64,000 bases of DNA from Blastopirellula retiformator (GTDB lineage Bacteria > Planctomycetota > Planctomycetia > Pirellulales > Pirellulaceae): positions 434,894-498,893 of the forward strand of contig NZ_SJPF01000004.1 of the NCBI RefSeq assembly GCF_007859755.1, read 5' to 3'. The position numbers were made by a program, and so were the translations under genes. The notes under the pieces were generated by a model. The model was given only the letters and a program-made list of their open reading frames with translations, had not been told where the DNA came from and ran no database searches. Below are positions 1,551 to 60,944 of this stretch, one piece after another. Position 1 is the stretch's first letter. Every line of letters starts with the position of its first letter.

Positions 1551-1923
1551 CTCAAGCCCAAGGAATCACGAATTCAGGCGCCTCGCTAGCTGCCTGTTGA
1601 AAAATGCCATCGTGGCATTTTCCAACCTCGCCAGGCTCAGAGCATAGCTCTTCGCGGCTCGCAAAATAACGACTTTCGTCGCTATTTTGGGATCGCATCC
1701 CTACGATCCAGCAGCCCGTTGAGAAAATCAACGGACTGCTAGTGGAGATAGCGACTGCAACCTGTTCCCCGCAGTATAAATAATTGCGTTTCGGCTTAAC
1801 ATTGGCAAAATCGTCCGGTTATTTGCCGATCCCCTGATTCATGTTCAAATTGGGGAAGAAATCCAAGATAGCGCTCCGCAAGTTATCCAAATCTTAACAC
1901 ATATCCCCCTAAGGGCGCCAATC
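1551..1923. other. Divergent intergenic region
   Basis: The gap between the kinase start (reverse) and the glutaredoxin start (forward) holds repeat copy A and an A/T-richer stretch at about 1770-1910 likely to contain the glutaredoxin promoter. I could not fix -10/-35 boxes with confidence. An AAGGG ribosome-binding site lies just before the ATG at 1924. Confidence 0.6.
1586..1742 (+). repeat. ~150-bp multi-hairpin repeat, copy A
   Basis: First of five copies of one element in the window. Successive inverted repeats are visible: an outer arm GTTGAAAAATGCCA paired with TGGCATTTTCCAAC, AGAGC-ATA-GCTCT, AAAATAACGAC paired with GTCGCTATTTT, and CCGTTGA paired with TCAACGG. The ends CTAGCTGCCTGTTGA and, read in reverse, CTAGCAGTCCGTTGA form imperfect terminal inverted repeats, and CTAG stands at both ends. 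This copy lies between two divergently transcribed genes, so it is not simply a gene terminator here. Confidence 0.88.
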
Positions 1924-4016: not shown

Positions 4017-4173
4017 CTAACTGCCTGTTGAAAAATGCCATCGTGGCATTTTTCAACCTCGCCAGGCTCAGAGCATAGCTCCTCGCGGCTCGCAAAATAA
4101 CGACTTACGTCGCTATTTTGGGATCGCATCCGTGCGATCACGCAGCCCGTTGAGAAAATCAACGGACTGCTAG
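4017..4173 (+). repeat. ~150-bp multi-hairpin repeat, copy B
   Basis: Second copy, between the convergent thiO and cheB genes. Its first stem is perfect (GTTGAAAAATGCCA, loop TCG, TGGCATTTTTCAAC). The AAAATAACGAC/GTCGCTATTTT stem, the GATCGCA/GTGCGATC stem and the final CCGTTGA/TCAACGG stem are also present. It ends CTAG and begins CTAA. In this position the A/T-edged hairpins could terminate transcription from both sides. Confidence 0.9.
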
Positions 4174-23729: not shown

Positions 23730-24503
23730 ATGGAATCGAAACCGGTAGGACAGTCGACCCTGTTCGGCATTGGCGAAGAAGATGACCTGATTGACGAGCG
23801 CGACAGCCCTGCGGTCGCCCGGTATCGCCCGACCCTGCGGCCGCCGATGGCCAAGCTGATCGTCTATGACGACGGCGCCGAAACCGGCGACCTGATCCGC
23901 ATCCGCAAATCGTCGTTTGTGATCGGGCGAACCGAAGGGGATCTCATCATCCCCCACGACAGCCAAATTTCTAGCCGGCATCTAGAAATAGTGCGGCGCG
24001 AGCATCCCGGCGGCTTTGACTGGGTGCTCCGCGACTTGGGCTCGACCAACGGCACGTTCGTCCGGGCGACGCAGATCATCGTCAAGCCGAACCAGGTGAT
24101 GATGATCGGCGGCAAACGCTTTGGGCAAATCCCGCCCCGGGGCGGTGGCAATGTCGGCGCCACGATCCAGGGCGAAAAAGAACTGCTGGACGTCGCCCAG
24201 GAAGCAATGGACGAACTCGTCCCTTGCCTGCAGGAAATTAATTACGACGGCAACGGGAAACGTCACAAGCTAACCAAGAAGGAACACTGGATTGGCAGCG
24301 ATCCGGTGCAATGCTCGATTTTGGTCAACGATCCGACCGTCAGTCCGCAACATGCCCGCATTTACCAAGATAAGCAAGGGCGGTGGATCATCGACGACGC
24401 CAAATCGCTAAACGGCATCTGGCTTCGTATTCGAGAATTGAATATTGGCCGCGGCGGTTACTTTCATTGCGGCGAGCAGAGGTTCTCGCTGACGGTCACC
24501 TAG
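23730..24503 (+). CDS. Double FHA domain protein
   Basis: A 257-residue protein with two forkhead-associated domains, which bind phosphothreonine. The first covers about residues 40-130 (IGRTEGDLIIPHDSQISSRHLEI then DLGSTNGTFV), the second about 170-257 (IGSDPVQCSI then VSPQHARIY and DDAKSLNGIWL). No enzyme domain is attached, so it likely acts as an adaptor. The next gene downstream, 261 bp away on the same strand, is a large Ser/Thr kinase, an obvious candidate partner. The stop codon TAG lies inside the CTAG edge of repeat copy C. Confidence 0.92.
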   Translation: MESKPVGQSTLFGIGEEDDLIDERDSPAVARYRPTLRPPMAKLIVYDDGAETGDLIRIRKSSFVIGRTEGDLIIPHDSQISSRHLEIVRREHPGGFDWVLRDLGSTNGTFVRATQIIVKPNQVMMIGGKRFGQIPPRGGGNVGATIQGEKELLDVAQEAMDELVPCLQEINYDGNGKRHKLTKKEHWIGSDPVQCSILVNDPTVSPQHARIYQDKQGRWIIDDAKSLNGIWLRIRELNIGRGGYFHCGEQRFSLTVT

Positions 24504-24657
24504 GCAGGCCGTTGATTTTCTCAACGGGCTGCTGGATCGCACGGATGCGATCCCAAAATAACGACGTAAGTCGTTATTTTGCGAGCCGCGAAGAGCTACG
24601 CTCTGAGCCTGGCGAGGTTGGAAAATACCACGATGGCATTTTTCAACAGGCAGCTAG
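24500..24657 (-). repeat. ~150-bp multi-hairpin repeat, copy C (reverse orientation)
   Basis: Third copy, the only one in reverse orientation. It starts at the FHA stop codon and ends about 107 bp before the kinase start. CTAG stands at both edges (24500-24503 and 24654-24657). Hairpin order is the same as in the others, read on the reverse strand; the first stem has two imperfect positions (TGGTATTTTCCAAC) while the AAAATAACGAC/GTCGTTATTTT stem is perfect. Confidence 0.9.
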
Positions 24658-37176: not shown

Positions 37177-37326
37177 CTGCCTGTTGAAAAACGCCATCGT
37201 GGCATTTTTCAACCTCACCAGGCTCAGAGCGTAGCTCTTCACGGCTCGCAAAATAACGACTAACGTCGCTATTTTGCGATCGCATCCCTGCGTTCCCGCA
37301 GTCCGTCGAGATAATCGACGGACTGC
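37177..37326 (+). repeat. ~150-bp multi-hairpin repeat, copy D (compensatory variant)
   Basis: Fourth copy, 50 bp after thiC. It is the most diverged, yet its last stem reads CCGTCGA/TCGACGG where copies A and B have CCGTTGA/TCAACGG, i.e. both sides of one base pair changed together. Flanking CTAG is not preserved at either edge. Confidence 0.87.
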
Positions 37327-60789: not shown

Positions 60790-60944
60790 AGCTGCCTGTT
60801 GAAAAATGCCATCGTGGCATTTTTCAACCTCGCCAGGCTCAGAGCATAGCTCTTCGCGGCTCGCAAAATAACGACTTACGTCGTTATTTTGGGATCGCAT
60901 CCGTGCGATCACGCAGTCCGTCGAGAAAATCAACGGACTGTTAG
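60790..60944 (+). repeat. ~150-bp multi-hairpin repeat, copy E
   Basis: Fifth copy, between the convergent thiE and secreted-protein genes. First and third stems are perfect (GTTGAAAAATGCCA/TGGCATTTTTCAAC; AAAATAACGAC/GTCGTTATTTT). The last stem reads CCGTCGA/TCAACGG, keeping one changed side only, an intermediate between copies A/B and D. Edges are GAGC and TTAG. Confidence 0.9.

Follow-up and report, generated by a model that had tools for sequence, protein, structure and literature searches.

A high-copy MITE with a conserved five-hairpin interior in Blastopirellula retiformator, with ends matching those of IS1182-family insertion sequences of relatives

Repeat copies in the window

The stretch analyzed here, called the window, is 64,000 nucleotides of the Blastopirellula retiformator genome (C4:434894-498893; 6.20 Mb in 10 contigs, abbreviated C). 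It carries five copies of one short repeat, as a preliminary description made from the sequence alone had reported at about 150 bp with 85-95% of bases shared. With a covariance model whose underlying alignment contained copy A, we located a 149-bp core common to all five, with all 149 positions matched in each copy and E-values between 6e-45 and 4e-40; identity to copy A was indeed 85-95%. The copies and the hairpins of copy A (H1 to H5, the covariation-tested structure described below mapped onto that copy) are as follows, where TSD is target-site duplication and TIR is terminal inverted repeat.

1586-1742, + strand: copy A; TSD CTAG at 1586-1589, core at 1590-1738, TSD CTAG at 1739-1742
1596-1626, + strand: hairpin H1 of copy A; pairing of element positions 7-19, which belong to the left TIR, with positions 25-37
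1630-1658, + strand: hairpin H2 of copy A; outer pairs GCC..GGC, inner pairs GAGC/GCTC
1663-1688, + strand: hairpin H3 of copy A; AAAATA.CGAC / GTCG.TATTTT type
1691-1708, + strand: hairpin H4 of copy A; GATCGCA / TGCGATC type
1712-1738, + strand: hairpin H5 of copy A; pairing of the right TIR (1728-1738) with its inverted copy inside the element (1712-1722)
4017-4173, + strand: copy B; core at 4021-4169, flanks CTAA and CTAG
24500-24657, - strand: copy C; core at 24505-24653, CTAG on both sides with a one-base slip
37177-37325, + strand: copy D; core, the most divergent copy, TSD lost
60792-60940, + strand: copy E; core, flanks TGAG and TTAG, without TSD

The end sequences first described were correct, as was the placement of CTAG at both edges of copies A and C, with the slip in C. 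The TIRs (CTGCCTGTTGA and CAGTCCGTTGA) are imperfect, identical at 8 of 11 bases by direct reading, and are more alike in the copies of a relative, G037 (G and L numbers are our labels for genomes and loci). Copy C is located on the TAG stop codon of an ORF at 23730-24503. No ORF longer than 59 amino acids overlaps copy A, and the longest one fully inside it has 21 amino acids. The reported lack of coding capacity therefore holds for copy A, with the nuance that at least one stop-free frame crosses the core in 85 of the 87 full-length copies counted below. The window was also correctly said to lack a transposase as far as PF01797, PF01609, and NF033551 are concerned, the three families searched genome-wide, none of which had a match there. 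Rfam 15 gave no match in the window at gathering scores and none over the element in loci of four relatives at E-values up to 1.

Copy number, target-site duplication, and unoccupied sites

A first genome-wide look returned 376 to 377 candidates, and each of the 40 that were scored was at least 95% identical to copy A. When up to two mismatches are allowed, the left end CTGCCTGTTGAAAAA has 345 matches in the whole genome (174 forward and 171 reverse), far above chance as given by the 13 matches (5 and 8) of a reversed-pattern control. The detailed census covered 2.03 Mb, a third of the genome that includes the window, and yielded 87 full-length copies (46 plus, 41 minus; exactly 149 bp in 83) with a mean identity to the consensus of 95.4%. 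The flanking 4-mers were identical at 62 of the 87 copies, compared to 15.3 expected if the two sides were independent, and were mostly YTAR (CTAG 18, TTAG 17, CTAA 13, CTAT 7, TTAA 3, CTAC 2, CTTA 1, and ATAA 1). The two sides co-vary (TTAG/TTAG, CTAA/CTAA, CTAG/CTAG), and flanks that are not palindromic recur in one and the same orientation; CTAG is therefore a duplicated target lying outside the element. Of the two roles initially considered for it, a TSD and a part of the repeat, only the first stands.

The joined flanks of five copies were compared with three other genomes of the same genus. At C1:190444 and C2:243227, the junction was matched in one piece, with the element absent, in all three. 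Among 12 local alignments, 7 run through the junction for over 30 bases with no insert, and 3 fall short of it; two alignments for C2:174462 end 2 bases past the junction and show a single CTAA stop, compared to CTAA on either side of the element in B. retiformator. The counterpart of C2:174462 in G002 (C2:669987-670200) aligned in two segments whose spacing exceeds that in the query by about 136 bases; these extra bases were not recognized as the element, and none of the six model matches of G002 lies there.

Target duplications together with unoccupied sites in relatives indicate a transposed element rather than a REP palindrome moved by a RAYT. The preliminary description had offered both a MITE and a REP-like element. 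RAYT movement is not known to leave a TSD. REP/BIME-type palindromes would be moved via single-stranded DNA by a RAYT, a Y1 tyrosine transposase, and a CTAG beside an imperfect palindrome does look like a tagged REP; the genome has 21 Y1 (PF01797) matches, and GTAG-tagged REPs are described in the PVC superphylum (PMC3733652). REP/RAYT systems, as described there, also resemble the element in having a tetranucleotide beside a palindrome, an intergenic location, and a high copy number, but their tetranucleotide is a fixed tag (PMC3733652), whereas the flanks here are varying duplicated targets around complete 149-bp units with two inverted ends. Moreover, among the 10 of 21 Y1 loci inspected, an evident copy lay within 1.5 kb at one and a lone end-like motif at two. 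The RAYT reading is largely refuted by the target duplications, and we regard it as very improbable. The MITE identity is borne out by the TIRs, the 4-bp YTAR-type TSDs, the unoccupied sites in relatives, and the matching IS1182-family ends described below. The Y1 matches are partly clustered (C2:268331-275151 and C4:906226-919162), with no evident link to the element.

The sampled third also contains 26- to 27-bp forms with the ends only, flanked by YTAN (C2:88790, C2:702824, C2:630188, C3:326873, and four others; 12 rows read as 8 places, as palindromes match both strands). Identical flanks were seen at 4 of the 8. These forms are either tiny mobile elements or, equally, the result of in-place deletion between two GTTGA motifs.

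Gene context and stop codons

Gene context was assessed with hexamer-scored ORFs called in this analysis rather than with an annotation. Eleven of the 87 copies lie within coding sequence, 30 coincide exactly with a stop codon, and the other 46 are intergenic (an earlier count of 38 copies, 16 on stops, is contained in these numbers), compared to 3798 coding, 574 stop, and 2257 other noncoding positions for 6629 control YTAR sites. Among noncoding sites, fusion to a stop codon is enriched (30 versus 46, control 574 versus 2257; odds ratio 2.6, P 1.5e-4). Copies are scarcer than control sites in divergent gaps (10/76 versus 741/2808; P 0.008), and convergent gaps show no significant rise (21/76 versus 556/2808; P 0.11). 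Co-orientation with the gene is mild, both for stop-fused copies (20 of 29; P 0.06) and for copies in tandem gaps (30 of 45; P 0.036). The first impression that insertion is not confined to a single context is therefore half right, as coding interiors are avoided and stop codons are favored.

Since YTAR contains TAA or TAG on both strands, insertion at YTAR duplicates the stop, and survival of stop-restoring insertions is the simplest reason for the excess at stop codons. Given the stop-free frames in most copies, some of the 11 copies inside genes could be read through. The same positional biases (stop-codon fusion, depletion in divergent gaps, and co-orientation) would also fit hairpins that work as RNA at gene ends, in termination, mRNA stability, or processing, with copies kept for the benefit of the host, and so would the copy fixed in a tRNA array described below. 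However, stop-codon sites are expected to survive in any case, as the duplication restores the stop, and the substitution patterns considered below also speak against a role as RNA.

Distribution and a copy in a tRNA array

Searches of the relatives, as initially suggested alongside that of the whole genome with its hundreds of copies, detected the element in 9 of 60 genomes by blastn and, with strict filters, in 19 of 297 genomes of the class by the covariance model at E-values up to 1e-4, B. retiformator being included in both counts. Covariance-model matches were strong in families f1, f2, f7, and f10 and weak in f8, f19, and f22; G039 (family f4) also has the element. Abundance is patchy, with hundreds of copies in B. 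retiformator and between 2 and 6 matches per genome in the three others of its genus; first-look candidates numbered 48 in G037 and 65 in G039. Two decayed copies are common to G001 and G003 at the same places. A scan of genome contigs with a looser pattern, from which B. retiformator may have been left out, returned 22 stretches, all from Pirellulales, Planctomycetia, or Planctomycetota MAGs, while a stricter first pattern had no match in those contigs. The phage and plasmid collections had no match to copy A. One viral contig (IMGVR_UViG_2891333991_000001, L366) has an exact match to the element core pattern.

In g58, another genus of the family, one match was found in each of five genomes (E 1e-6 to 5e-14), and three other g58 genomes listed (G084, G130, and G265) had no covariance-model match. 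In all five loci (L218-L222), the element extends from 1501 to about 1640 within homologous flanks that form a tRNA array, with 10 to 19 ARAGORN genes per 3.1-kb locus, and lies between tRNA-Val or tRNA-Cys and tRNA-Asp, on the same strand. By eye, the H1 stem differs from locus to locus by paired substitutions, against a background of conserved tRNAs, and H2 is partly lost in two of the five. A diverged copy of the element is thus fixed in a tRNA array of five g58 species. Two loci of G231 (L223 and L236, from 1501 onward) gave weak model matches with CTAG flanks, on both sides in L223; H1 is similar and the internal hairpins are different, and these are perhaps a sister MITE family.

IS1182-family insertion sequences with matching ends

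Insertion sequences (ISs) with similar ends were found in relatives. L157, in G045, is a 1540-bp element (CTAG-CAGCCTGTTGAATTAT ... inverted CCGCCCGTTGAATTAT-CTAG). It contains a single ORF (506 amino acids), the product of which matches PF05598, PF01609, and PF13751; its best NCBIfam model is NF033551 (IS1182), with 196 bits, below the cut-off of 270. L157 came from scanning fetched transposase loci for similar ends and was thus first noticed via the end motif. Its relatives include L159 in G001 (1472 bp, with perfect 15-base ends and one in-frame TGA), the 5'-truncated L160 in B. retiformator (C1:769771, with a matching right end, TTCAACGGGCTG-CTAG), a fragment at C6:13043 of the same genome, one in G003, and a decayed one in G037; none was found in G002, G039, G049, or G056.

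An independent end search at ten IS1182-type loci, looking for inverted ends within identical 4-mers and leaving the MITE sequence unused, was positive at five (CTAG or TTAA flanks; ends CNGCCYGTTGA or CAGGCTGCTGA). These represent four distinct elements, namely, L157, L159 (= L323), and L318 of G234, all with CTAG flanks, and L326 of G003, with TTAA flanks. L314, L315, L316, L320, and L325 were without such ends. The left end of the MITE agrees with that of L318 at 14 of 15 bases, compared to 10 for the best interior 15-mer. The right end in B. retiformator agrees with the IS ends at 8 to 11 of 15 bases, and interior stretches do no worse (10 to 11). The G037 MITE ends match L159 at 14 of 15 bases on both sides, and the ends of L326 match a third end type present in one G037 MITE copy. 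These ISs thus resemble the MITE in their TIRs and their CTAG or TTAA flanks, and outside the ends the two have nothing in common but short chance words. Judged from sequence comparison, the element is a MITE with ends matching those of IS1182-family ISs of relatives, the match in B. retiformator being clear for the left end only, and we infer that an IS1182-type transposase is its probable mover.

A transposase with matching ends, which the preliminary description proposed to look for, is accordingly present in relatives as IS1182-type ISs, and no intact one was found in B. retiformator. The IS1182 gene at C4:7808-9037 passes the NCBIfam cut-off, with no such ends detected. A search of the sampled third for matched ends with identical flanks 600 to 3500 bp apart gave three pairs, all of the MITE type and none IS1182. 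An ISAs1-type IS at C2:9287, adjoining a TTAG-CAGCCTGTTGA motif, was rejected as a partner: at the 5 of 10 loci with a readable right end, that end terminates at GGTGCGATCGCCGTG, the inverse of which occurs within the supposed left end. The target of ISPsy36, an IS1182-family element, is reported as GGCC rather than YTAR, and that of ISPsy32 is reported as CTAG (PMC8027508). YTAR is also given as the TSD of IS5 (PMC10359306), so that the target alone does not name the IS family.

Five hairpins kept by paired changes

As single-stranded DNA, copy A folds at -40.5 kcal/mol, 6.65 standard deviations below shuffled sequences (z -6.65). The five hairpins, with 53 pairs, were defined on one G037 copy and examined in an alignment (A3) that spans seven genomes of four families and comprises 43 of the 46 copies extracted; the decayed copies G003_L043, G001_L037, and G049_L039 were omitted, seven partial copies had been skipped earlier, and B. 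retiformator contributed 8 of the 36 149-bp copies then in hand. Standard pairs occupy 89.1% of the cells of A3, compared to 32.6 to 42.2% for slid structures. There were 183 double-change cells, compared to 54.9 in shuffled alignments (reached in 0 of 500 shuffles), and 27 pairs had changed on both sides; further pair types showed no excess (50 versus 50.7 in shuffles). Held-out copies behaved alike: in an alignment (A4) of 20 copies from G250, G292, G205, and G234 (families f2 and f7), in which L216 was shortened during extraction and which samples the stronger matches, standard pairs made up 83.0% versus 33.4 to 41.7% for slid structures, with 87 double-change cells versus 37.6 (0 of 500 shuffles) and 20 pairs changed on both sides, a number reached by 8 of 500 shuffles. 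Further pair types were again not in excess (40 versus 41.1), and helix H4 was the weakest, at 64% paired. Kinship among copies inflates these covariation counts; the change in kind between genomes is plain in the per-genome consensus sequences.

The MITE copies of G037 fall into end types CAGYCYGTTGA, CAGCCTGGGGA, and, in the one copy mentioned above, CAGGCTGCTGA. In H1 and H5, the internal strand that pairs with the TIR mostly changes along with the end type, while H2 to H4 stay in place; the exceptions are one H5 mismatch in the CAGCCTGGGGA type and one H1 C-A in the CAGGCTGCTGA type. The hairpins are thus kept by paired changes across planctomycete families. They are unrelated to the IS1182 ISs and are the most unusual feature of the element, one that the preliminary description had not mentioned.

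Settled copies and shared variants

Decay was counted in 82 of the 83 149-bp copies of B. retiformator. Of the singleton variants, 51 fell in stems (106 sites) and 21 at unpaired positions (43 sites), an equal frequency in stems and loops, indicating that settled copies decay regardless of the structure. The picture differed for variants shared by 8% or more of the copies (4 in stems versus 9 at unpaired sites; Fisher P 0.0098), a contrast that depends on these 13 shared variants, which were most simply multiplied by transposition. We infer that selection on the structure acts on transposing source copies during amplification and not copy by copy in the host. The equal decay of stems and loops argues against hairpins kept as RNA for the host. 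In addition, cells across genomes comprised 1991 Watson-Crick, 24 G-T, 87 A-C, and 159 other combinations, which is not the excess of G-T over A-C that a plus-strand RNA would give; as the settled copies share this skew, these counts carry no further weight. A role as RNA at gene ends is therefore improbable as the reason why the copies are kept.

The covariation could also reflect mutation rather than selection, if template switching during replication perfects imperfect palindromes. The changes between genomes are mainly from one Watson-Crick pair to another, with few G-T steps, as template switching would produce. However, the stem cells of the 82 settled copies hold 96 other departures (45 A-C, 31 other, and 20 G-T) compared to 3 double changes (an earlier count of 9 was due mostly to one copy misaligned by an indel), indicating that such correction is not fast and speaking against it as the sole cause of the covariation, and the number, order, and size of the hairpins persist across families. 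We consider template switching unlikely, although less so than the RNA role.

A model for mobilization in trans

The reading that we favor, at a probability of roughly 0.68, is a high-copy MITE that inserts at YTAR, carries hairpins selected for transposition, and depends on IS1182-family DDE transposases acting in trans. The transposase would cut at the CNGYCYGTTGA ends of the MITE, and insertion at YTAR would give the 4-bp duplication. Folding may aid transposition, for example, if each TIR is extruded as a double-stranded hairpin in single-stranded or supercoiled DNA. Selection would then act on source copies, settled copies would decay freely, and insertions at a YTAR overlapping TAA or TAG would regenerate the stop, so that many copies could survive at gene ends. 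Hairpins by themselves are no proof of a role in transposition; that five of them are kept by covariation across distant planctomycetes suggests that the folded shape helps the element to spread. A more far-reaching and distinctly tentative version, which we think possible rather than probable, is that the hairpin cassette is a selfish module, acting as folded DNA or RNA, that raises trans-mobilization by IS1182 transposases, co-evolves with the TIRs, spreads between planctomycete families, and was once adopted as a fixed, structured component of the g58 tRNA array.

MITEs are usually viewed as deletion leftovers with an unimportant interior. An IS1182-family MITE has been described in Paracoccus yeei, MITEPye1, with 159 bp, no ORF, 4-bp direct repeats, and stem-loops (PMC11578231). 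It resembles the planctomycete element, by description rather than sequence, in its IS1182-like TIRs, intergenic location, and long stem-loops, but it is reported at 1 to 3 per chromosome rather than hundreds, and the excerpted account mentions neither covariation nor conservation across families (PMC11578231). Correia/NEMIS, ERIC, and RUP elements are likewise about 100 to 200 bp and rich in hairpins, with about a hundred copies of RUP, and several elements of this kind have TA termini; as outlined in the same source, most small bacterial repeats form one stem-loop by pairing of their ends, unlike the five separate hairpins found here (PMC2229807). Among the open-licence literature matches listed, none reports this planctomycete element or covariation inside an IS1182-type MITE. 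IS1182-type MITEs are thus already known, and what is new here is the unusual abundance and the conserved five-hairpin interior. Because the structure of the interior persists between families even though settled copies decay freely, selection for DNA folding in transposition in trans is directly testable. With hundreds of insertions, of which about one-third in the sampled DNA lie on stop codons, the genome also offers a natural experiment in the tolerance of bacterial gene ends.

IS1272 belongs to the IS1182 family. It is reported to target hairpins, replacing the inverted repeats of the target without a TSD (PMC5678879). An IS with ends ATACYGTTCGGCACGCC (429-amino-acid open frame at C2:143581) is inserted in two of the MITE copies, at C2:143264-144810 and C1:650559-652332. 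Both insertions are at the same point, the tip of H1, and are bordered by a duplication of 13 bases, TGCCCTCGTGGCA. They account for both two-ended copies of this IS in the sampled third, and a lone end at C3:125 lies elsewhere; the IS appears to target the hairpin of the MITE.
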